Shown here piece by piece: positions 38,011 to 62,142 of a stretch of 64,000 nucleotides of DNA. Each line of letters begins with the position of its first letter. Positions within the stretch are counted from its first letter, which is position 1. Location: positions 1,736,001 through 1,800,000 of the forward strand of contig NZ_AP014879.1 of NCBI RefSeq assembly GCF_002355735.1, in the 5' to 3' direction. The notes beneath the pieces are model-generated. The model had not been told where the DNA came from. It worked only from the letters and a program-made list of their open reading frames with translations, and ran no database searches. Position numbers and translations under genes: made by a program. The DNA is from Sulfuricaulis limicola (GTDB taxonomy: Bacteria; Pseudomonadota; Gammaproteobacteria; Acidiferrobacterales; Sulfurifustaceae).

Positions 38011-39411
38011 TCAGCGCGCGCCCTTGCCGAAGAGGATCACCTGCGCGGTCTGAAAAAGAATAATCAGGTCCAGAAACAGGGTGTGGTTTTTCACGTAATA
38101 AAGGTCGTACTGCAATTTCTGCACGGCGTCCTCCACGGTCGCGCCGTAGGGATAACGTATCTGGGCCCATCCGGTAATGCCCGGCTTGACCGTGTGCCGT
38201 GACGGGTAGTAGGAAATTTTCTTGGTCAGATCCTCCACGAAAAACGGCCTTTCCGGACGCGGGCCGACGAAGCTCATGTCGCCCTTGAACACGTTGAAAA
38301 CCTGCGGCAGCTCATCGATGCGCAACAGGCGGATAACCCGGCCCACGCGCGTCACCCGACTGTCCTGCTTTTTCGCCCACTGCGGGACACCGTCACGTTC
38401 GGCATCTTGGCGCATGCTGCGAAACTTCAGCACCCTGAAAACACGTCCATTCTCGCCAACGCGCTCCTGGCGGTAAAAAATCGGGCCGCCGCTTTCCAGC
38501 CAGATCAGCAACGCCGTTATCAGCATCACCGGCAAAGTCAGCAACAGCAATGCGCCGCTGGCGGCGACATCGAACATGCGCTTGGAGACGTCCTTCAGCG
38601 GGCTGCGGCCGAAACCGTCGGAGAATATCATCCAGCTTGGGTTCAGCGATTCGACCTGGATCTGGCCGGTCTCGCGCTCGAAGAAGGAAGACAGATCGAC
38701 AACCTCGATGCCCGCCAGTTTGCACTCCAGCAACTGGTCTGCCGGCAGGCCGCCGCCGCGCCGCTCGCGCACGCCGACGACGATTTCATCGATCTTGTAT
38801 TTTCTGGCGATGGAAAGAATGGGTCCCTTGTCGTGCAGTATCCGGGTGCGATCCAGGCAACAATCCGAATTGTTGAGAGGCAAGCAGCCCACCAGATTGA
38901 ATTTGCGCTCTCCCTGTTCATCCCGCTCCAGCCCCTCGATCTTGGCGGTGCGGCTGCCGGCCCCCAGAAGCAACACGCGCCGGCGCATGGCATCCAGCTT
39001 GAACAGCCTGACAAAAACCAGCCGGGTCAGCGCCGTTCCCGCAAACGCAAGCAGGAACACAAGACCGAACGCGCCGCGACCGAGATGCAGATGCGGGAAA
39101 ACATAGAAAACCAGCAGCATCACCACCAAACCGGCGACGAAGCTGGCCACGAAGCGGACAAGATGTCCCCATTCACCTTCCTGCTTGACGTCGCGTTGAT
39201 GCAAGCCGAACGCCGTCATGATGCTGAGCATGACGAGGGTAAAAATCAGGGCTCGGGGGAATATGGGACCGAGGGATTCAATGTCGCTGGGATCTTCCCA
39301 GGAGAAACGCACCACCGCGCCGATATACATGGAGGCAAACAGCACCACCGCCTCGGTAACAGCCATGAGGAAAAGTGGTAACGGCACATAGTGCTTGAAC
39401 AGTCGAATCAT
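38011..39411 (-). CDS. Undecaprenyl-phosphate sugar phosphotransferase, PEP-CTERM/EPS type (TIGR03013-like)
   Basis: 466 aa. Five N-terminal membrane helices, a CoA-binding-like middle region, and the C-terminal bacterial sugar-transferase domain (about 265-460). The last contains KRMFDVAASGALLLLTLPVMLITALLIW, FRVLKFRSMRQDAERDG, LRIDELPQVFNVFKGDMSFVGPRPERPFF, and PGITGWAQIRYPYGA. The C-terminal half transfers a hexose-1-phosphate to undecaprenyl phosphate, starting EPS synthesis at the cytoplasmic membrane. It is the first gene of the minus-strand series and has a strong sigma-54 promoter motif about 150 bases upstream. Confidence 0.93.
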   Translation of the reverse strand: MIRLFKHYVPLPLFLMAVTEAVVLFASMYIGAVVRFSWEDPSDIESLGPIFPRALIFTLVMLSIMTAFGLHQRDVKQEGEWGHLVRFVASFVAGLVVMLLVFYVFPHLHLGRGAFGLVFLLAFAGTALTRLVFVRLFKLDAMRRRVLLLGAGSRTAKIEGLERDEQGERKFNLVGCLPLNNSDCCLDRTRILHDKGPILSIARKYKIDEIVVGVRERRGGGLPADQLLECKLAGIEVVDLSSFFERETGQIQVESLNPSWMIFSDGFGRSPLKDVSKRMFDVAASGALLLLTLPVMLITALLIWLESGGPIFYRQERVGENGRVFRVLKFRSMRQDAERDGVPQWAKKQDSRVTRVGRVIRLLRIDELPQVFNVFKGDMSFVGPRPERPFFVEDLTKKISYYPSRHTVKPGITGWAQIRYPYGATVEDAVQKLQYDLYYVKNHTLFLDLIILFQTAQVILFGKGAR

Positions 39412-39562: not shown

Positions 39563-39578
39563 AGCAATTACTGTGCCA
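39563..39578 (-). promoter_or_regulatory. Sigma-54 (-24/-12) promoter for the EPS sugar-transferase gene
   Basis: Minus strand reads TGGCAC (39578-39573), five bases AGTAA, then TTGCT (39567-39563). GG and GC are separated by exactly ten bases, matching the consensus TGGCAC-N5-TTGCW without a mismatch. Transcription would start near 39552 and give a leader of about 140 bases before the ATG at 39411. XrtA-type EPS loci are known to be controlled by RpoN through regulators such as PrsR, which fits; no such regulator is in this part of the window. Confidence 0.75.
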
Positions 39579-51725: not shown

Positions 51726-51802
51726 ACATTATATAGAGCTCATTCATAACCATGCGGGTCGAATCCAGGCACTTGTCCGCACATGCGCCAACACGGCCTG
51801 CC

Positions 51803-52678
51803 ATGCTCCCTCATCTAATAATAAGAGGCACAGCGATCATCCTTTGTGGCCTGGTCCTGAATGCCTGCTCCATGGGCCAGATGGTGGCGCGCTCGTCGCT
51901 GTCCATCCTCGACAGCGGCAATGTCGCCATGAACCGCGAGACCGATCTGGAACTCGCGCGCGCCGCAATCCCGGCCAACCTCAAACTGATCGAAGGGCTG
52001 ATCCTGGAACTCCCGGACAACGCCGAACTGCGGCTGCAGGCGGCCCAGGGGTTTTACGGTTACGCCTACGGCTTCATCGAGGATGACGACAGCCAGCGCG
52101 CCTCCGCGCTGTACCGCCGCGGCCTGGAACACGCCCTGCGGGCGCTGGCGGTCGCGGGGGTTTCCGGCGACGTCGCCGCCCAGCCCCAGGAGGAGCTGGA
52201 GCGTCAACTCGCCACGCTCGACAACAGCGCCGTGCCGGCGCTGTTCTGGTCCGCCACCTGCTGGGGCAAGTGGATCGACATGAACCGCGACGAACCGGCG
52301 CGCATCGCCGAGATGGGCAAGGCGGCGGCGCTGATGGCGCGCGTGCTCGAACTTGACGAAAACTATTACCACGGCGGCGCGCACCTGTTCTTCGGCGTCT
52401 ATTACGGCGCCAAACCGCCGATGCTGGGCGGCGACTTCGAGCTCTCCGCCCGCCACTTCGACAAGGCCCGCGCCGTTACCGGCGGGAAGCTGCTGCTGGC
52501 CGACCTGCTGCGGGCCCAGTATCTCGCGCGCCAGCAACTCGACCGCCGGCAGTTCCACGAACGTCTGACCGCGATCGTCAATGCCCCGTCCGATGTATTT
52601 CCGGAAATGGCGCTGGTCAATGCCATTGCCAAGCAAAAAGCCGGACAATTACTCGCCAAAGAAAAAGAATGGTTTTGA
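51803..52678 (+). CDS. TRAP-associated lipoprotein TatT
   Basis: 291 aa from ATG 51803; an upstream ATG at 51752 would add 17 residues. Lipobox LNAC (about residue 22) and a helical repeat protein follow (NRETDLELARAAIPANLKLIEGLILELPDN, LLAQGFYGYAYGF-like TPR turns, YHGGAHLFFGVYYGAKPPMLGGDFELSARHFDKA). It matches TatT (TRAP-associated T component), which forms a trimer that binds the DctP-type binding protein and may feed it hydrophobic ligands. It overlaps dctP by ten bases. Confidence 0.88.
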   Translation: MLPHLIIRGTAIILCGLVLNACSMGQMVARSSLSILDSGNVAMNRETDLELARAAIPANLKLIEGLILELPDNAELRLQAAQGFYGYAYGFIEDDDSQRASALYRRGLEHALRALAVAGVSGDVAAQPQEELERQLATLDNSAVPALFWSATCWGKWIDMNRDEPARIAEMGKAAALMARVLELDENYYHGGAHLFFGVYYGAKPPMLGGDFELSARHFDKARAVTGGKLLLADLLRAQYLARQQLDRRQFHERLTAIVNAPSDVFPEMALVNAIAKQKAGQLLAKEKEWF

Positions 52679-53682
52679 GAAAATTTTGCGCGCTGTTGCT
52701 GTTGATGCTCTGGCTTCCCGTGACGCAGGCGCAGGACACCTATGTCCTCAAATTCGCCACGCTGGCGCCGCAAGGCTCCACCTGGATGAACATCATCGCC
52801 GACTGGGCCAAGGCCGTGGAGCAGGAAAGCCGGGGGCGGCTCACATTCAAGCTCTATTCCGGCGGCGTCTCGGGCGACGAGCCCGATGTGCTGCGCAAGA
52901 TCCGTTTCGGCCAGTTGCACGGTGGCGCCATGACCGGGCACGGCATCGGCTACATCTATTCGCCGGTGCGCGTGCTGGAAATCCCGTTCCTGTTCCGCAG
53001 CTACGACGAGATCGATCATGTGCGCGCGCAACTCATGCCGGACATCCGCAAGGGATTCCGTGACAACGGCTTCGAGCTGCTCGGCTGGATGGAAGTCGGC
53101 TTCATCCAGCTTTTCTCCAAACACCCCATCTACTCCCTCGAAGACCTGAGGAAGCGGCGCATCTGGCTGTGGCAGGGAGATCCCCTGGGCACCGCCTTCT
53201 TCACCGCCAGCGGCATCTCGCCGGTGCCGCTGCCGATCACCGAGGTTTTCACCAGCCTCTCCACCGGCCTGATCGACACCACCATCGCGCCGCCGCTCGG
53301 CGCCATCGCGCTGCAATGGTTTTCCAAAACACCCTACATGACCGAGATCCCGGTGATGGACGGCATCGGCGGGCTGCTGGTGTCGCGCCAGTTCTTCGAC
53401 AAGCTGCCGGCGGACCTGCAGGAGCTGCTGCGCCGCACCGGTGACGAAGCCGGGAAGCGCCTGCTCGTGGAAACCCGGCGCGACAACGCGAAAAGCCTGC
53501 AAGTGCTGAAGCAGCACGGCATTACCTTTACCAACGAATGGAAGGACAGCGACGCCGTGCTTTACGACCTGCGCGATCGCGCCGCCGCGGCGCTTGCCAA
53601 GGACAATTACATCCCGGCCGCGCTGTACACGCGCGCGCGCCGGGAACTGGACGCCTACCGCGCGCGCAAAGGCAAGCAGTGA
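52669..53682 (+). CDS. dctP: TRAP transporter substrate-binding protein (DctP family)
   Basis: 337 aa with a signal peptide ending near TQAQ (residue 22). YVLKFATLAPQGSTWMNIIADWAKAVEQES, GGVSGDEPDVLRKIRFGQLHGGAMTGHGIGYI, LRKRRIWLWQGDPLGTAFFTASGISPVPLPITEVFTSLSTGLIDTTIAPP are DctP-domain blocks. R-I-W is at the position of the ligand-clamping arginine motif, and a conserved G-L-I-D follows. It is the periplasmic solute receptor. Its partner TatT suggests a TatPT-type system, whose ligands may be lipophilic rather than C4-dicarboxylates. Confidence 0.92.
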   Translation: MVLRKFCALLLLMLWLPVTQAQDTYVLKFATLAPQGSTWMNIIADWAKAVEQESRGRLTFKLYSGGVSGDEPDVLRKIRFGQLHGGAMTGHGIGYIYSPVRVLEIPFLFRSYDEIDHVRAQLMPDIRKGFRDNGFELLGWMEVGFIQLFSKHPIYSLEDLRKRRIWLWQGDPLGTAFFTASGISPVPLPITEVFTSLSTGLIDTTIAPPLGAIALQWFSKTPYMTEIPVMDGIGGLLVSRQFFDKLPADLQELLRRTGDEAGKRLLVETRRDNAKSLQVLKQHGITFTNEWKDSDAVLYDLRDRAAAALAKDNYIPAALYTRARRELDAYRARKGKQ

Positions 53683-54191
53683 CCGGACAGGACTCGCACT
53701 CCGCCCGCAACCGCACCTGGACCGCCAGGCTCGAGTATTATTTCACCGGCATCGAAAGCGCCTTCGCCATTTTCGGGCTGGCCCTGATGCTCGCCCTGTC
53801 GCTGGTCGAAATCGTCCTGCGCAATTTCCTGCACTACTCGATTCCCGGCGCCGACGTCCTGATCCGCCACCTGGTCCTGTGGGTGAGTTTTCTCGGCGCC
53901 GTGATGGCGGTGCGTGAACGTCACATCAAGGTGGAAATCATCGCCGCCTGGCTGCCCGAGATCTGGCACCGCCGCCTCGAGCGGCCGATTTTCCTGTTCT
54001 CCGCGCTGGTCTGCGGCGTCATCGGCTGGGCGGCGGCGCGATTCTGGTACCAGGAGTGGCTCAACGCTCCCGCCGGCGAGCAATGGATCGCCCTGCTCAG
54101 CATCGTCATCCCGATGGGTTTCGTGCTGCTGACGCTGCACTTCGCAATGCGCTTCGTGATCGGTCCGCGCGCACGCGCGCGCACCCCATGA
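53679..54191 (+). CDS. dctQ: TRAP transporter small membrane subunit (DctQ family)
   Basis: 170 aa from a GTG (53679) that overlaps the dctP TGA by four bases (GTGA); no ATG gives the right length. Four membrane helices: FAIFGLALMLALSLVEIVLRNFL, VLIRHLVLWVSFLGAVMAVRE, FLFSALVCGVIGWAAARFW, and WIALLSIVIPMGFVLLTLHFAMRF. It partners DctM in the sodium-driven importer. Coupled to both neighbours by stop/start overlap. Confidence 0.92.
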   Translation: MTGQDSHSARNRTWTARLEYYFTGIESAFAIFGLALMLALSLVEIVLRNFLHYSIPGADVLIRHLVLWVSFLGAVMAVRERHIKVEIIAAWLPEIWHRRLERPIFLFSALVCGVIGWAAARFWYQEWLNAPAGEQWIALLSIVIPMGFVLLTLHFAMRFVIGPRARARTP

Positions 54192-55453
54192 CGCTCGCCA
54201 TCGTTGCCTTGCTGGTCCTGATTGCCGCCCTCGGCGTGCCCTTGTTCGTGGTGCTGGGGGCCGGCAGCCTGATCGCCACGCACGCGGCCGGTCTCGATCC
54301 GGCCGTCATGCTGGTGGAAATGCTGCGGCTCACGTCCTCGCCCAACCTCATGGCGATTCCGCTGTTCACGCTCGCGGGGGTCACGCTCGCGCGCGGTGGC
54401 GCGCCGCAACGGCTGGTGCAACTGTTCAATGCCGGCTTCGGCTGGATGCCGGGCGGACTGGCGGTCGTGGCGCTCACGGTCTGCGCCTTCTTCACCGCGT
54501 TCTCCGGCGCTTCCGGCGTCACCATCCTGGCGCTCGGCGGCCTGCTGTATCCGATGCTGACGGGCGAAAACTATTCGAAGCGCTTCTCGCTCGGACTGCT
54601 GACGGCTTCCGGATCGCTCGGCCTGCTGTTCCCGCCCAGCCTGGCGGTACTGCTGTACGGCATCGTCGCGGGCGTCAGCATCGAACATCTCTTCACCGCC
54701 GGCATCGTGCCCGGAACGATCCTGCTGGTCATGCTGGCGCTCTACGCCATGGTCACCTCCCACCGCATCGGCATTCCCCGGCACACGTTTTCCTTCGCGG
54801 CACTGGTCGCCGCCGCGCGCGCCGGATTCTGGGACATCCTGCTGCCCGTTGGCATCATCGGCGGGCTGCTGGGCGGCTACGTGACCGTGACTGAGGCGGC
54901 GTCCTGCGCCGCGGCCTGGGCGCTGCTGCTGGAAACCGTGATCCACCGGCGCCTGAATACGCGCGCCGTGTATTACGGGGTATTCCGTGAAACCTGCGTG
55001 CTGGTGGGCAGCCTGCTGATCATCCTCGGCATCGCGCTCGGCCTGACCAACCTCCTGATCGACGCCCAGGTACCCATGAAGATGCTGTCCCTGCTCGAGC
55101 AGGACGTGCACAGCCAGCTGCAATTCCTGCTGCTACTCAATATTTTCCTGCTGGCCGTCGGCTGCGTCATGGATATTTTTTCCGCCACCATGGTGATCGT
55201 GCCGCTGATCCTGCCGCTGGCGCAGCATTTCGGGGTCGATCCGGTGCACCTCGGTATCATCTTCCTGGCCAACCTGGAGATCGGCTATCTCACCCCGCCG
55301 GTCGGCATCAACCTGTTCCTCGCCAGCCAGCGCTTCCGCGAGCCCATCCTGGGCCTGTTCCGCGCCGCCCTGCCGTTTCTCCTTATTATGCTGGTCTGGC
55401 TGGCGCTGGTGACCTACCTCCCGCCGCTTTCGCTGTGGTGGAAGAAAATATAG
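54188..55453 (+). CDS. dctM: TRAP transporter large membrane subunit (DctM family)
   Basis: 421 aa with about twelve helices; ATG 54188 overlaps the dctQ stop (ATGA). PLFVVLGAGSLIATHAAG, FFTAFSGASGVTILALGGLLYPML, and SGSLGLLFPPSLAVLLYGIVAGVSIEHLFTAGIVPG are typical DctM/ion-transporter-superfamily blocks. LILPLAQHFGVDPVHLGIIFLANLEIGYLTPPVGINLFLASQ contains the conserved L-T-P-P-V-G. It carries the transport path for the substrate delivered by DctP. No terminator is obvious in the following 150 bases. Confidence 0.93.
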   Translation: MTLAIVALLVLIAALGVPLFVVLGAGSLIATHAAGLDPAVMLVEMLRLTSSPNLMAIPLFTLAGVTLARGGAPQRLVQLFNAGFGWMPGGLAVVALTVCAFFTAFSGASGVTILALGGLLYPMLTGENYSKRFSLGLLTASGSLGLLFPPSLAVLLYGIVAGVSIEHLFTAGIVPGTILLVMLALYAMVTSHRIGIPRHTFSFAALVAAARAGFWDILLPVGIIGGLLGGYVTVTEAASCAAAWALLLETVIHRRLNTRAVYYGVFRETCVLVGSLLIILGIALGLTNLLIDAQVPMKMLSLLEQDVHSQLQFLLLLNIFLLAVGCVMDIFSATMVIVPLILPLAQHFGVDPVHLGIIFLANLEIGYLTPPVGINLFLASQRFREPILGLFRAALPFLLIMLVWLALVTYLPPLSLWWKKI

Positions 55454-55606: not shown

Positions 55607-56464
55607 ATGCAGCGTGCAATAACCCGGGCCTGGATCGGCCTGATCGCCTTGTGCGCCATCGCGCCGCGGATCGCTGTCGCCGGATCCGATCCCGTCATTT
55701 TCGGAGTATTCCCCCGCTGGAACGCGCAGATCACGGTGCGCCACTTCACGCCGCTGGCGGCGCAGCTGGCGCGCGAGCTGGGCCGTCCCGTGCGTATCGA
55801 AACCGACAAGGATTTCGACTCCTTCATGCGCCGGGTCTATGCCGGGGAATTCGACGTGGTGCACCTGAACCAGATGCAATACGTACAGGCCCACAAGACA
55901 GCGGGCTACCGGGCCATCGCCAAGCTGTGCGACAACCCCGACTGCACGATCAGGGCGATCATCGTCACGCGCCGGGACTCGAAACTCGCAAAAGTCCGCG
56001 ATCTGAAAGGCAAGACCATCGCCTTCGGCGATCCCGGCGCGATGGTGAGCCACGTGCTGGCGAAATCGCTGCTGCTGGAATCGGCGCTGGGGCCGGAACA
56101 GTACCGGACGATATTCACCAAAAATCCACCCAATGCCCTGCTGGCCGTGTACAACGGCGAGGCGGATGCCGCGGGTGTGGGTCCGCCTGTGTTTCAGCAA
56201 CCCGAAATTCGCCAGCGGCTCGACCTCCGCGAGCTGCGGATACTGGCGGAGAGCCGGCCGATTCCGCATCTGCCGATCGCCGTGCGCCGCGACATGGATG
56301 CGAAACTGGCGCAGCGCATCCAGCAGATACTGACCGGACTCCTGCGCCGGCCCGAAGGACGGGAAATTCTCAAAAAGCTCGGCATCGAACGGTTCGAGGC
56401 GGCCGACGACGATCAATATGCGCTCGTCAGGCATCTGATGGAGGAGGAAGCCGGTGCACAGTGA
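55607..56464 (+). CDS. PhnD/AioX-like periplasmic binding protein
   Basis: 285 aa. Signal peptide to about residue 25 (IAVAGSDP). The PF12974-type phosphonate/phosphite-binding fold is shown by IFGVFPRWNAQITVRHFTPLAAQLARELGRPV, FDVVHLNQMQYVQAHK, LKGKTIAFGDPGAMVSHVLAKSLLLESAL, and NALLAVYNGEADAAGVGPPVF. Two cysteines, C108 and C113 (L-C-D-N-P-D-C), sit in one loop and could bind a thiophilic ligand. There are no ABC permease genes beside it. The kinase gene overlaps its end by 11 bases, so it is probably a sensor input, as AioX is for AioS/AioR arsenite sensing. The ligand here is unknown. Confidence 0.85.
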   Translation: MQRAITRAWIGLIALCAIAPRIAVAGSDPVIFGVFPRWNAQITVRHFTPLAAQLARELGRPVRIETDKDFDSFMRRVYAGEFDVVHLNQMQYVQAHKTAGYRAIAKLCDNPDCTIRAIIVTRRDSKLAKVRDLKGKTIAFGDPGAMVSHVLAKSLLLESALGPEQYRTIFTKNPPNALLAVYNGEADAAGVGPPVFQQPEIRQRLDLRELRILAESRPIPHLPIAVRRDMDAKLAQRIQQILTGLLRRPEGREILKKLGIERFEAADDDQYALVRHLMEEEAGAQ

Positions 56465-58339
56465 CCGGTGGATCCCCCGGTGGCACGGCATCCAGGCGCG
56501 CTTCCTGCCGGTGCTGGCAACATTCGTCATCGTCTCCATGGCGGCGCTGGGCATCACCCTGTATTTCAACCAGCGCCATATCACCCTGAACCGCTTCGAG
56601 CAGGACACGCAAAACCTCCGGCAGGTGTTGCAGGACAAGGGGAATGCCTATTCCACTTTTCTCGCGCGCATCGCGCCCCAGGGCATCCTCGCGCACGATT
56701 ATCTCCTGCTCGAAGGCTACACCGAGGAACTTTCCGCCGATGCCGATGTGGTCTATGCCGTGATCCTCAACCGCGGCCACCGGCCCATCACGCATTTCCT
56801 CAAGCGTTCCGATGCACCGGACGGCGTCGTCAACCGCGCCGGCGTGAAACCGGAACAATTCATGGAATCCCTGGCGCAAGCACGCGCCGACACCAGCCTG
56901 CTCATCGTCAGGCGCGACATCGATTACAACGGCACGATCCTGGGCAGCGTCGAAGTCGGTCTTTCCCGGGAAAAAATCGCCAGCACCCTCGCTGAGCTCA
57001 AGGTCAGCCTGGAACAGGAATTGCGCCGCATTGCCATGCTGACCGGGGGCGAGATACTGATCGCCCTCGTCATCCTGATTCTCATGAGCGAGATGGCGTT
57101 TCATCGGCTGGTGATGCGGCCGATCCGGGCCCTGGGCACGGACATGGCGCGCGTGCAGGCGGGCAACCTCGGCGCGCGCACCCGCGTGGACCGCGAGGAC
57201 GAGATTGGCTGGCTGGCGCGCGGTTTCAACAAAATGGCGGCCGATCTCCAGGATCACGTGCATAAAATCGAGGAACAACGCCTGGCCTACAAGGACATGC
57301 ACGACTACCTGGCGAACATTCTCGACAACTCGGCGGACATGATCGCCACCACGGCGCTCGACGGCTCCATCGTGGAGTTCAATGCCGCGGCGGAACGCAT
57401 TCTCGGCTACCGGCGCGACGAAGTGGTGAACCGGGCCTCGTCCTCGCTGTACTGCGATCCGCAGGAACGCGACCGCCTGTACGACAGCGCGCAAAACGGC
57501 CAGGTGGTACAGAACGCCGAAATCCGCCTGCGGTGCAAAAACGGCGAAATGATCGACGCGGAACTGACGCTGTCGCCGTTGCGCGACAACGCCGGGAACC
57601 TCATCGGCACGGTGTGCATCGGGCGGGACATCACGCGTGCCAAGGCCATGCGACGCGACTTGATCCAGGCGGAGAAGATGGCCTCGGTGGGCCAGGTTTC
57701 AGCATGGATCGCGCACCAGATCCGCAATTCGCTCGGCAGAATCCTGATGGTCGCCTCGGCGATGCAACCGGGGCGCGACGGCACCGAGGAGCAGCAGCAG
57801 ACCTGTCGCAACCTGAAGTCTTCGATTGCCGGAATGGACAACATCGTTTCCGATCTGCTCGATTACAGTCGCACGCTTTCGCTGCATCCGACGCCAGCCG
57901 ATCTCAACAGCGTGCTTGACGATCTGCTTGCCTCCCACGCTGACGGCGGCCTCAACGGCCACCACCGCATCGAGCGCGTATTCGGCCCGGATCTGCCGCT
58001 GGTACGGATAGACGTGTTCAAGATGGAACAGGCCCTGGGCAACGTGCTCAAGAACGCCATGCAGGCCATGCCGGGCGAGGGAACACTGCGGGTGGAGACA
58101 CGCCGCGGTCCCGGCGCGCGGCAGGTGACCGTGATGGTGCAGGACAGCGGTCCGGGCATTCCGCCGGAAAACCTGCAAAAGGTATTTCGCCCCTTTTTCA
58201 CAACCAAACCCGGTGGCACCGGGCTGGGCCTGGCGATCGCCTCGCGTATTGTCGAGGCGCACGGGGGCCGCGTGGCGGTCGAAAGCGCCGAAGGGCGGGG
58301 AGCCGCGTTCATTTTCATCCTGCCGGAGGTACCGCCGCG

Positions 58340-58343
<4 letters not shown>
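56454..58343 (+). CDS. Membrane sensor histidine kinase (HAMP-PAS-HisKA-HATPase)
   Basis: 629 aa from a GTG at 56454 with GGAGGA upstream; it overlaps the PhnD-like gene by 11 bases. Helix 1 (about 16-38), a periplasmic sensory region (40-195), helix 2 (197-216), HAMP (215-268, RPIRALGTDMARVQAGNLGARTRV), and PAS (about 285-400, ANILDNSADMIATTALDGSIVEFNAAAERILGYRRDEV). HisKA with the phospho-His in WIAHQIRNSLGRI (about residue 420) and an HATPase domain (IDVFKMEQALGNVLKNAMQAMPG, DSGPGIPPEN, GGTGLGLAIASRIVEAHGG) follow. The H-box H-Q-I-R-N-S-L-G is a variant of H-E-I-R-N-P-L. It probably phosphorylates the regulator encoded next. Confidence 0.93.
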
Positions 58344-59755
<1,412 letters not shown>

Positions 59756-59953: not shown

Positions 59954-59969
59954 CGGCACAACTCTTGCT
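59954..59969 (+). promoter_or_regulatory. Candidate sigma-54 (-24/-12) promoter for the nucleotidase-like gene
   Basis: CGGCAC, five bases AACTC, TTGCT; GG and GC are ten bases apart, and only the first base differs from TGGCAC-N5-TTGCW. Transcription would start near 59980, about 70 bases before the ATG at 60052, and the gene just upstream encodes a sigma-54 activator. Confidence 0.6.
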
Positions 59970-60051: not shown

Positions 60052-62142
60052 ATGAAAATTTCCCGTTTTCAAAAAACGGTGCTGGCGCTGGGCCTTTCCG
60101 CGCTCGCCACCACCGTGTCGCTGCCACCGGCATTCGCCGGTTCCGGCAAGGTGACACTGATTCAGACCGGCGACATCCACGGCCACCTGGTGCCGCGGCC
60201 AAACCTGCGCAGCGATGCCATCGACAGCAAGATGGAAGGCGGCGTGGCGCGCATGTACACGGTCATCAAGCAGATGCGCAACGACGCCACCAAGTGCGCA
60301 TACGTCAGCGGGAAAAAGGTATGCACCGACTATTCCCTGCTGCTCAACACCGGCGATACCTTGCAGGGCTCGGGAGAGGCGCTGTTTTCCCGCGGCCAGG
60401 CCATGATCGACGTGCTCAATAACTTCGGCTTCGTGGCCCACGCCCCCGGCAACTGGGACTTCCTCTACGGGCCGGCCCGTTTCGAGGAAACCTTCAAGGG
60501 CACCGCGACCACCCCGCCCCTGGCCAACTGGAACGCGATGGCGTCGAATCTTTATTACACCAACCAGTTTGACGATGCGGCCGTGTGCGGCGTGACGGCG
60601 ACGGATCCGGCGACCGGAACGGTCCGTCCGCGCAAGCGCGTGCTGCCAACCTACATGATCAAGCAGGTCGGCAACGTCAAGGTCGGCATCCTGGGCATGA
60701 CCACGGCACGCGCCATTGCCGCGGTCGGCACCAGCGTGACCAGGAACTACATGTTCACCGACGGCAAGACCGAGGTTCCCTGTTTCGTCGACCGGCTGCG
60801 TAACGTCGAGGGCGTCGACGTGGTGGTCATGATCTCGGAACTGGAAATGTCCCGCGACATCCAGGTCGCCGAGACCCTCGCCCCGGCCCCGGACGTGATC
60901 CTCAACTCCGACATGCACGAGCGCACCACCGCTCCCATCGTCGCGGTGAATCCCGACGGACACAAGACTCTCATCGTCGAGGAAGGCCAGGACGGCACCG
61001 TAATCGGCAAGCTGGAGCTGGCGGTGAAGAACGGCGTGATCACCAGCTGGGAATTCAAGCAGCGCGTGATTACGCAGGACATCAAGGAAGACAAGGCCAT
61101 CGCCGCCGCAGTCAAAAAGGCGCGTGCGCCCTTCCTGGCCGGCACTTTCGTGCCCGGCCAGACGGTAACGGTGGGCGGCAACACCACCATGTTGATGCGC
61201 CCGGTGGACGAGATCATCGCCTATACCCAGGTGGGCCTGCACCGTTCCAACTTCGTGGATGAGGACATGCCCGGCGTGGTCGAAGGCACCTCGCACGACC
61301 TGATCGCCGACGCCATGGCTGCCATCGGCCAGGCCGGGTCGTCGTCCATCCGCGGCTTCCGTTATGGCACCCACGTGTCGCCCGGCGGAGGCATCACCAT
61401 GGAGGACATCTACCACTACATCCCCATCGCCGCCAAGCTGGGTCGCACCGACAAGGCCTGTGGCGCCGACCTGAAGTTCGCGATCGAGAATTCGATCGGT
61501 GGCACTTTCCATCCCGATCCGGGCCAGTGGACCGGCGGCTGGATGTTCGGCTACAGCGGACTGGCCTATGATGTGGACGGCTGCGACGGCTTCATGGGCG
61601 CCACCCCGGTGAATCCGTCGCCCCTGACCTTCGCCGATCGTTACCGCCCCTGGCCCACCAATCGCGGCAGCAACATCAAGGTCAATGGCGTCGCCATCGA
61701 CGAGCTCGACATTTATGACAACCGCACCACCATCAACGGCGTCGCCAACCCGACTTATCAGAAGTGCCTGTCGGGCGACGGCAGCAACACGCCCCACGAT
61801 GGCTACACGGTCACCGGCTACTGGTATGCGGATGATCCGACCACCATCAACAACTGCAACCCCTGCCGGGGTCGCGTGGTGCAGGTCGTGAAGACCGATG
61901 GCAGCATCGTCCAGGTCGCCGGCCCGGGCGCGTCCGGTGCGCTGCCGGACAGTCTTGACGTGATGGACATCACCGAGGCCATGGTCAAGTATCTGCAGGT
62001 CAACCTGGGCGGGATGGTGACGGCCAACAACCTTCCGATCCATCGCCTGACGGTGAAGCGTCTGCCCACCATCAATCCGTACAGCTTCCCGCAGATCCAG
62101 CCGCTCAAGGGCGCTTCGACCGCGACCTGTCCGGCTCTGTAA
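60052..62142 (+). CDS. Exported 5'-nucleotidase/SoxB-fold metallophosphatase-like protein
   Basis: 696 aa with a signal peptide (cleavage near residue 29, AFA-GS). GGAGGAG lies upstream of ATG 60052. The fold is shown by LIQTGDIHGHL (D41, H43), LLLNTGDTLQGSG (D102), FVAHAPGNWDFLYGPARFE (N134-W-D, where 5'-nucleotidases have N-H-D/E), and a long C-terminal region with FAIENSIGG. Two more usual metal-ligand motifs are changed: S-E at 262-263 for S-H, and S-D-M-H at 286-289 for G-H-x-H. It may act on nucleotides or another anionic substrate with a different metal site, or be a non-catalytic binder. At least ten cysteines suggest disulfides or metal binding. Confidence 0.78.
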   Translation: MKISRFQKTVLALGLSALATTVSLPPAFAGSGKVTLIQTGDIHGHLVPRPNLRSDAIDSKMEGGVARMYTVIKQMRNDATKCAYVSGKKVCTDYSLLLNTGDTLQGSGEALFSRGQAMIDVLNNFGFVAHAPGNWDFLYGPARFEETFKGTATTPPLANWNAMASNLYYTNQFDDAAVCGVTATDPATGTVRPRKRVLPTYMIKQVGNVKVGILGMTTARAIAAVGTSVTRNYMFTDGKTEVPCFVDRLRNVEGVDVVVMISELEMSRDIQVAETLAPAPDVILNSDMHERTTAPIVAVNPDGHKTLIVEEGQDGTVIGKLELAVKNGVITSWEFKQRVITQDIKEDKAIAAAVKKARAPFLAGTFVPGQTVTVGGNTTMLMRPVDEIIAYTQVGLHRSNFVDEDMPGVVEGTSHDLIADAMAAIGQAGSSSIRGFRYGTHVSPGGGITMEDIYHYIPIAAKLGRTDKACGADLKFAIENSIGGTFHPDPGQWTGGWMFGYSGLAYDVDGCDGFMGATPVNPSPLTFADRYRPWPTNRGSNIKVNGVAIDELDIYDNRTTINGVANPTYQKCLSGDGSNTPHDGYTVTGYWYADDPTTINNCNPCRGRVVQVVKTDGSIVQVAGPGASGALPDSLDVMDITEAMVKYLQVNLGGMVTANNLPIHRLTVKRLPTINPYSFPQIQPLKGASTATCPAL

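Follow-up and report, generated by a model that had tools for sequence, protein, structure and literature searches.

Within a 64,000-nucleotide stretch of the Sulfuricaulis limicola genome (contig NZ_AP014879.1, positions 1,736,001 to 1,800,000 of the forward strand; hereafter the window), one gene, P0001, encodes a relative of the thiosulfohydrolase SoxB that is not SoxB itself, and in which two metal-site histidines are replaced by glutamate (E263) and aspartate (D287). This pair of residues gives its name to what we term the ED type, an unnamed conserved variant of the SoxB-related family: the best NCBIfam and Pfam matches give it no name, and no description of it was found in one library of open-access papers. 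Judged from alignments and a phylogeny, the evidence supports the ED pocket as a switched site, not a decayed one. We tentatively interpret P0001 as a periplasmic dimetal hydrolase of the ED type, a sulfohydrolase that would act on polythionates or protein-bound thiosulfonates independently of SoxYZ, and give this interpretation a little less than an even chance.

The ATG of P0001 lies shortly downstream of a sequence resembling a ribosome-binding site (ggagga), residues 1 to ∼29 resemble, by eye, a Sec signal peptide, and the protein is probably secreted or periplasmic. SoxB is its nearest named family. With a score of 168.2 bits against the SoxB model (TIGR04486), compared with a curated cutoff of 550, P0001 is placed outside SoxB proper, and a separate canonical SoxB is encoded in the same genome. 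UshA-type NCBIfam models give at most 41 bits, and the UshA equivalog (NF007109) fails with 32.9 bits against a 600-bit cutoff. The closest solved relatives by sequence (phmmer, PDB) are SoxB and 5′-nucleotidases, with Thermus SoxB at the top. The sole Pfam model passed is 5_nucleotid_C (PF02872), in the C-terminal domain (27.3 vs. 23.6 bits), and Metallophos (PF00149) does not report P0001 at E ≤ 1. The protein has the two-domain 5′-nucleotidase/SoxB fold with a metallophosphatase N-terminal domain. An AlphaFold2 model of the full protein, built from a shallow alignment of 12 sequences, was poor [predicted local distance difference test (pLDDT) 50.8, predicted template modeling score (pTM) 0.51]. 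The N-terminal domain modeled alone reached a mean pLDDT of 66.6 and a pTM of 0.74, with pLDDT below 50 at residues 43–61, 102–114, and 131–150, which hold H43, D102, and N134-W135; it matches Thermus SoxB (2wdd) with a Z score of 22.5 and a root-mean-square deviation of 3.1 Å over 268 residues.

Numbered from the ATG at position 60052, the motifs of P0001 are D41-I-H43, G101-D102-T103, N134-W135-D136, S262-E263, and S286-D287-M288-H289, exactly where an earlier, sequence-only reading of this DNA had put them. In a family alignment, residues D41, H43, D84, and N116 of Escherichia coli UshA fall on D41, H43, D102, and N134 of P0001, while H117, H217, H252, and Q254 fall on W135, E263, D287, and H289. 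The motif columns coincide with this mapping in profile-profile alignments of P0001 with four SoxB proteins (E 3e-56) and with three UshA/5′-nucleotidase-like proteins (E 6e-56). A HMMER alignment to Thermus SoxB (2wdc) agrees for GD, N-W, S-E, and D-x-H289, its D41-x-H43 segment not being significant. Since MAFFT, hhalign, and HMMER independently place the same columns together, the possibility that the canonical histidines are present at shifted positions, which the sequence-only reading had named as a challenge to its claim, is ruled out.

That reading had also held that three histidines are changed together in an otherwise intact domain. Relative to UshA this stands, with W135, E263, and D287 as the replacements, but the tryptophan is not special to P0001: all four SoxB proteins checked carry it, as does a Sporosarcina UshA-like protein which nonetheless retains S-H and G-H-S-H. 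The N-W-D motif was therefore rejected as the unusual part of the protein. Relative to SoxB, the tryptophan is common to both and a different set of three histidines differs (N134, E263, and D287), so that the SoxB ligand pattern of H-W-[ED], S-H, and G-H-T-H reads N-W-D, S-E, and S-D-M-H in P0001. In terms of these alignments, the tryptophan is a SoxB trait, and the glutamate and aspartate are new. The catalytic Asp-His dyad of the 5′-nucleotidases is absent, with UshA H117 on W135 and D120, the dyad partner of the catalytic histidine, on L138. In the C-terminal domain, where the alignment is gappy, the UshA phenylalanines that stack on the base (F429 and F498) fall on I459 and Y592, and its arginines that bind phosphate (R375, R379, and R410) fall on N400, G408, and G439. 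As aligned, the site 1 ligands of P0001 are intact (D41, H43, D102, and H289), and site 2 is probably all-oxygen (D102, N134, E263, and D287).

P0001 thus shares with SoxB (TIGR04486; PDB 2wdc-2wdf, 4uwq) the two-domain fold, D-x-H, G-D, the tryptophan at the nucleotidase histidine position, the last histidine of G-H-x-H, and sulfur-oxidizing hosts, and differs from it in the three substituted positions, in its location outside the sox cluster, and in belonging to a separate clade. With UshA and CD73 it shares the fold, D-x-H, GD, and (in UshA) the asparagine of N134, and differs in the tryptophan at the catalytic histidine, in the Glu/Asp replacements of two site histidines, and in nucleotide-pocket positions that are mostly unmatched. 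The suggestion of the earlier reading that SoxB was the comparison to make proved sound, SoxB being the nearest named family even though P0001 lies outside it.

We analyzed the distribution and phylogeny of P0001 relatives in several sets of genomes. In a protein search of 96 genomes, eight had a match at E ≤ 1e-30, the window's own among them, and 11 loci came from scanning genome contigs. When 369 genomes of the class were searched with a profile, 36 matched at E ≤ 1e-60, compared with one (the window's own) among 398 genomes in a draw from the phylum. By motif inspection, the 36 comprise 19 genomes with the ED type, 10 with only the EH type (E263 with histidine at the 287 position), and seven with lower-scoring relatives (G071, G101, G154, G176, G319, G375, and G379), of which only that of G101 (L076) was read, and is not ED. 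A plasmid search returned 37 records, all below 60% identity (highest 29.0%), with no ED type in the nine of these that were inspected, and a viral scan found no relatives. Gene calls at the loci come from a simple predictor, and genes may be missed or mis-started.

Because the ED type is named after E263 and D287, a tree in which the motif columns are masked is the test of whether it is a natural group. Sixty sequences (37 ED, 11 EH, and 12 with neither pattern, here "others") were used, with nine motif columns masked and 12 fragment or duplicate rows excluded beforehand; the pieces of one relative split over two frames (L030) were entered separately, with nothing joined. The 37 ED sequences, P0001 among them, group as one clade with no other members (support 100), and the 11 EH sequences do the same (support 98); these two clades are joined with support of 100, and the four SoxB proteins form their own clade (support 100).

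Within the ED clade, N134, W135, E263, D287, H289, and E290 occur in 37/37 sequences without exception, and D41, H43, and D102 in all 36 that have residues there, while S262 is alanine in a single member; the mean majority frequency over the 583 columns is 0.60. A wider ED set that overlaps the first (41 genes, 35 loci) keeps D41, H43, D102, N134, W135, and H289 wherever these positions are present. The 263 position is glutamate in every ED (37/37) and EH (11/11) sequence and histidine in all 12 others. The 287 position is aspartate in 37/37 ED, histidine in 11/11 EH, and, among the 12 others, histidine in 11 and aspartate in one. The glutamate change is therefore common to ED and EH, and the aspartate change marks ED. 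EH relatives (L066-L075, L021) are like ED in conserving N-W-[DE], S-E, and the additional acids E310 and D314, but keep the histidine in A-H-T-H and have neither H415 nor H455. With one of the two changes, the EH type would fit a stepwise change of the site. A SoxB-like protein on a Runella plasmid (L083, 884-2557), whose gene adjoins those for DsrE and a c-type cytochrome, has N-W-E, S-H, and A-D-T-H; its His-to-Asp change is apparently independent.

The sequence-only reading had preferred a switched site to decay, and the relatives bear this out. The replacing residues can bind metal, they are exceptionless in a 37-member clade recovered with the motifs masked, and the closest relatives of P0001 are full length. 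Tandem ED pairs occur in 5 of 36 loci surveyed for neighborhoods (L037, L040, L042, L043, and L088). Decay of the site was rejected on these grounds. Only some relatives are short: two stop at contig ends (L064, L065), and others are short within their contigs (L061/L099, with ∼455 amino acids on a contig of 4 Mb, and the 377-amino-acid product of the second L040 gene), so the alternative that all close homologs are fragments did not hold.

Beyond the metal motifs, two acids are conserved in both clades: E310 in 36/37 ED, 11/11 EH, and 1/12 others, and D314 in 37/37, 11/11, and 0/12. Two C-terminal-domain histidines belong to ED alone. H415 is histidine in 35/35 ED sequences of the tree set and in 37/38 of the wider set, the exception being an L088 paralog with serine; H455 is histidine in 35/35 and 37/37; no EH or other sequence has histidine at either position (for H455, 0/11 EH and 0/12 others). 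W493 is conserved in 34/34 ED sequences. With H415 and H455 fixed and site histidines lost, histidines leave the N-domain site while two become fixed in the C-terminal domain.

The neighborhoods of ED genes were surveyed at the 36 loci, one of which (L044) is cut by a contig end before the glutamate and aspartate. A TsdA-like gene is found no more than about six genes away in 7/36 (L037, L042, L043, and L093-L096; six genomes), and a DsrE-like cluster gene lies one or two genes upstream of ED in 5/36 (L024, L038, L093, L095, and L097), with the DsrE identity confirmed by Pfam in three of the four tested; the L095 gene, unmatched there, is assigned from clustering. At L093 the order is a Sulf_transp half, a second similar-looking small membrane protein (no NCBIfam match), a diheme cytochrome c, TsdA-like, SulP-like, DsrE, and ED. 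The SulP-type permease there scores 316.6 bits, below the cutoff of 380, and its L040 relative scores above it. At L095 the order is DsrE-like, TsdA-like, ED, a 187-amino-acid protein, and a metallo-beta-lactamase (MBL) protein nearest Blh (below cutoff). L093 and L094 also hold an EH gene further downstream. Propellers of the pyrroloquinoline quinone (PQQ)/BamB type, ∼1000 amino acids long, are encoded beside or near the tandem ED genes of L042 (13115-16153), L043 (13253-16303), and L037 (12426-15359). Genes that cluster with the sigma and anti-sigma pair adjoin an ED gene at L029 and, at L104, an EH gene, with a sigma factor confirmed by Pfam only in L104.

Co-occurrence was counted in the 369-genome class draw, in which genomes are not independent and kinship is ignored, so that the figures are guides only. 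TsdA-like proteins (E ≤ 1e-40) occur in 11/19 ED genomes compared with 31/350 others (Fisher 4e-7), and in 1/10 EH genomes. SoxB (E ≤ 1e-120) occurs in 16/19 ED genomes compared with 129/350 others (p 5e-5), and in all 10 EH genomes (the hosts of L066-L075; p 7e-5). When only genomes with SoxB are considered, TsdA-like proteins are found in 10/16 with ED and 23/129 without (p 3e-4). In three ED genomes (G092, G183, and G191), a threshold relaxed to E ≤ 1e-60 still yielded no SoxB match. This co-occurrence makes a sulfur role of the ED type likely, without fixing its substrate. Taken with some of the neighborhoods (TsdA-like, DsrE, and sulfur transporters) and a regulator pair shared between loci, it points to periplasmic sulfur oxidation.

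The S. limicola genome is a single contig of 2.86 Mb, and from its gene content we infer a sulfur oxidizer. Its canonical SoxB, with canonical motifs, is encoded at 2.293 Mb and adjoins soxX and soxA, both scoring above cutoff, and a TsuA/YeeE-like gene that scores below its cutoff; P0001, at 1.796 Mb, is ∼0.5 Mb away and thus outside the sox cluster. Elsewhere in this genome (L110, 8516-12258), as at L038 (7708-13188, G004), purM/purN-like genes, a possible anti-sigma gene, and a DsrE gene stand in like order; an ED gene follows DsrE at L038 and not in S. limicola.

Directly upstream of P0001 are a periplasmic binding protein, a sensor kinase, and a sigma-54 regulator, in the order of AioX-AioS-AioR (Table 1). 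In PDB the binding protein is most similar to PhnD and PtxB, and also matches ArrX and AioX. The kinase (67% identical over 495 amino acids) and regulator (79%) have close counterparts in L037, from the same genus, where the pair is followed directly by two ED genes, along with genes for a 5-heme and a TsdA-like cytochrome. At L103, an EH gene follows a kinase and a binding protein 32% identical to that of the window, and in L044 (G008) a DctM permease of the tripartite ATP-independent periplasmic (TRAP) type, 84% identical to that of the window, stands directly before the truncated relative. The candidate sigma-54 promoter ahead of P0001 is weak evidence alone, since three sites of this quality were found in the window against 2.4 expected by chance. 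In L037, each of the two ED genes has a sigma-54-like site ahead of its predicted start, at distances of 112 and 133 bases, and looser sites (at most two mismatches) lie ahead of 6/41 predicted ED genes, two of these in L037; the window's own site falls outside that 41-gene scan, as the predictor starts P0001 at 59815. A perfect sigma-54 consensus is also present at 39563-39578 on the minus strand, ∼150 bases ahead of a minus-strand gene at 38011-39411, and a gene for an SBP_bac_3-PAS-GGDEF protein lies just 3′ of P0001 (62382-63998).

Table 1. Coordinates in the window of P0001, its key residues, and upstream features.
Feature	Position	Strand	Basis or remark
ED-type SoxB-like hydrolase gene, P0001, 696 amino acids + stop	60052..62142	+	Open frame; SoxB/5′-nucleotidase homology
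D41-I-H43, metal site 1 ligands, retained	60172..60180	+	Motif position and UshA alignment
D102, GDT bridging aspartate, retained	60355..60357	+	Motif position and UshA alignment
N134-W135-D136; N134 = UshA N116 (SoxB: His), W135 = UshA catalytic H117 (SoxB: Trp)	60451..60459	+	
S262-E263; E263 in place of UshA H217/SoxB His	60835..60840	+	
S286-D287-M288-H289-E290; D287 in place of UshA H252/SoxB first His, H289 retained	60907..60921	+	
E310-x-G-x-D314, extra acids 3′ of the metal motifs	60979..60993	+	Conserved in ED and EH
H415, C-terminal-domain His	61294..61296	+	Nearly invariant in ED; Asn in EH, mostly Asp elsewhere
H455, C-terminal-domain His	61414..61416	+	Invariant in ED
Candidate sigma-54 promoter, CGGCAC-N5-TTGCT	59954..59969	+	Ends 83 bases before the P0001 start codon
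NtrC-type sigma-54 response regulator	58340..59755	+	Pfam
PAS/HAMP sensor histidine kinase	56454..58343	+	Pfam
PhnD/PtxB/AioX-like periplasmic binding protein, possible kinase input	55607..56464	+	TIGR01098 above cutoff; weak TtrS match
TRAP transporter, T component (TAtT) and DctP/Q/M	51752-55453	+	Upstream of the regulator genes

In the mechanism we propose, P0001 would retain a dimetal center whose site 2 holds a harder ion (Mg, Ca, or Mn); this oxygen-ligated second metal may activate water or hold a sulfonate. The substrate would be a polythionate (for example, tetrathionate) or a Cys-S-thiosulfonate carried by a periplasmic protein of the DsrE type; hydrolysis of an S-S bond would release its sulfonate as sulfate, and a sulfane chain would remain. 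H415 and H455 may provide acid/base chemistry. P0001 would act alongside SoxB-SoxYZ, not as a substitute for it, and the upstream binding protein, kinase, and sigma-54 regulator would probably induce the gene on a ligand, perhaps a sulfur oxyanion. A bolder version, which we consider doubtful, extends this to the whole ED clade as SoxYZ-independent periplasmic polythionate/thiosulfonate hydrolases with an unequal metal pair (a transition metal in site 1, a hard ion in site 2) and C-terminal-domain histidines that take part in the chemistry. The reaction proposed here resembles that of TetH, the tetrathionate hydrolase of acidophiles, which has an unrelated fold, a PQQ-type beta-propeller.

Related chemistry has been described in other systems. 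Erythrobacter flavus, which is reported to lack most typical Sox genes, turns thiosulfate into sulfur with TsdA and a SoxB-like "5′-nucleotidase," for which tetrathionate is the proposed intermediate and substrate (PMC7608252). In strain 21-3 the SoxB-like proteins belong to a thiosulfate-induced cluster bearing TsdA and an MBL sulfur dioxygenase, and two extra SoxB-like proteins have, in that paper's description, typical SoxB ligands (PMC7608252). SoxB is reported to act on trithionate (PMC5336275), and DsrE3A and TusA to take up thiosulfonate from tetrathionate, forming Cys-S-thiosulfonates (PMC4175335).

Several observations weigh against a polythionate or thiosulfonate hydrolase. No clear TsdA was found in the S. 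limicola genome (best E 1e-4), and P0001 would therefore depend on substrate supplied externally or act on a different sulfur compound; relatives of the multiheme and PQQ proteins were also not found there, a weak negative from single-sequence searches. The other neighbors of P0001 encode a TRAP transporter and are not sulfur genes. At 29/36 loci the surrounding six or so genes include none that is TsdA-like, in some cases owing to contig ends. Without the five genomes that supplied queries, the TsdA-like enrichment falls to 6/14 ED genomes compared with 31/350 (p 0.001), and among SoxB genomes it becomes marginal (5/11 vs. 23/129, p 0.04). Finally, CD73 ties with SoxB, at the same Z score, when the N-domain model is compared with known folds. 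This last point would suit a phosphoesterase or nucleotidase of altered metal preference (for example, Ca- or Mg-dependent) acting on phosphorylated or phosphonate compounds, as would the phosphonate/phosphite type of the neighboring binding protein. We nevertheless find this account improbable. The nucleotidase histidine is replaced by tryptophan, and because CpdB needs a histidine at this position (its His117Ala variant is reported as essentially inactive on 3′-AMP; PMC7922932), ordinary nucleotidase chemistry is unlikely for P0001; the UshA pocket residues R375, R379, R410, and F429 fall on non-matching residues and F498 on tyrosine in the gappy alignment, the family scores favor SoxB, and some ED loci have sulfur-gene neighborhoods. 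The same histidine loss could instead indicate a pseudoenzyme for binding or sensing, in which site 2 is lost and site 1 binds a sulfur oxyanion, or a partner, on behalf of the kinase and regulator or of transport, and the location of P0001 downstream of that pair and the binding protein would agree with this. We regard it as unlikely: acidic residues able to bind metal take the place of the missing histidines in every member of the clade, the extra acids and C-terminal-domain histidines are nearly invariant, SoxB carries the same tryptophan and is described as an active hydrolase (PMC5336275), and counterparts of the window's kinase or regulator were seen at only a few of the 36 loci, in a survey that did not look for other regulators.

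Canonical SoxB acts on SoxYZ conjugates with two Mn. The closeness of P0001 to SoxB, together with the presence of SoxB in 16/19 ED genomes, could also be explained by a SoxB paralog which still acts on SoxYZ conjugates within the Sox cycle and in which only the metal has changed. This seems quite unlikely to us, as a separate SoxB already fills that role in those 16 genomes, P0001 is remote from its own sox cluster, the C-terminal-domain residues differ (H415, H455, and W493), and G092, G183, and G191 have ED with no SoxB match at the threshold given above. The upstream gene order, in turn, recalls an arsenic-linked system, in which P0001 might act, for example, on thioarsenates: AioX, AioS, and AioR are described in the literature as sensor, kinase, and regulator, and the binding protein matches the ArrX and AioX structures. 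Its best matches are, however, PhnD and PtxB, with a weak TtrS match as well, and the related kinase/regulator pair of L037 sits with TsdA-like and other cytochrome genes; arsenic genes were not searched for, and we consider an arsenic role very improbable.

If P0001 and its relatives are indeed polythionate or thiosulfonate hydrolases, the ED clade would give a tetrathionate- or trithionate-cleaving step to sulfur oxidizers other than the TetH-using acidophiles, TetH being an enzyme described as found in acidophiles (PMC10859504), and one fold would have yielded two sulfur hydrolases with differently built dimetal centers. Some genes of sulfur bacteria that probably carry a "5′-nucleotidase" annotation would in that case point to a route for tetrathionate or protein-bound thiosulfonate that has been overlooked. 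The E263/D287 pair, together with the EH clade that has E263 only, offers a ready set of proteins for following the stepwise rebuilding of a metal site.

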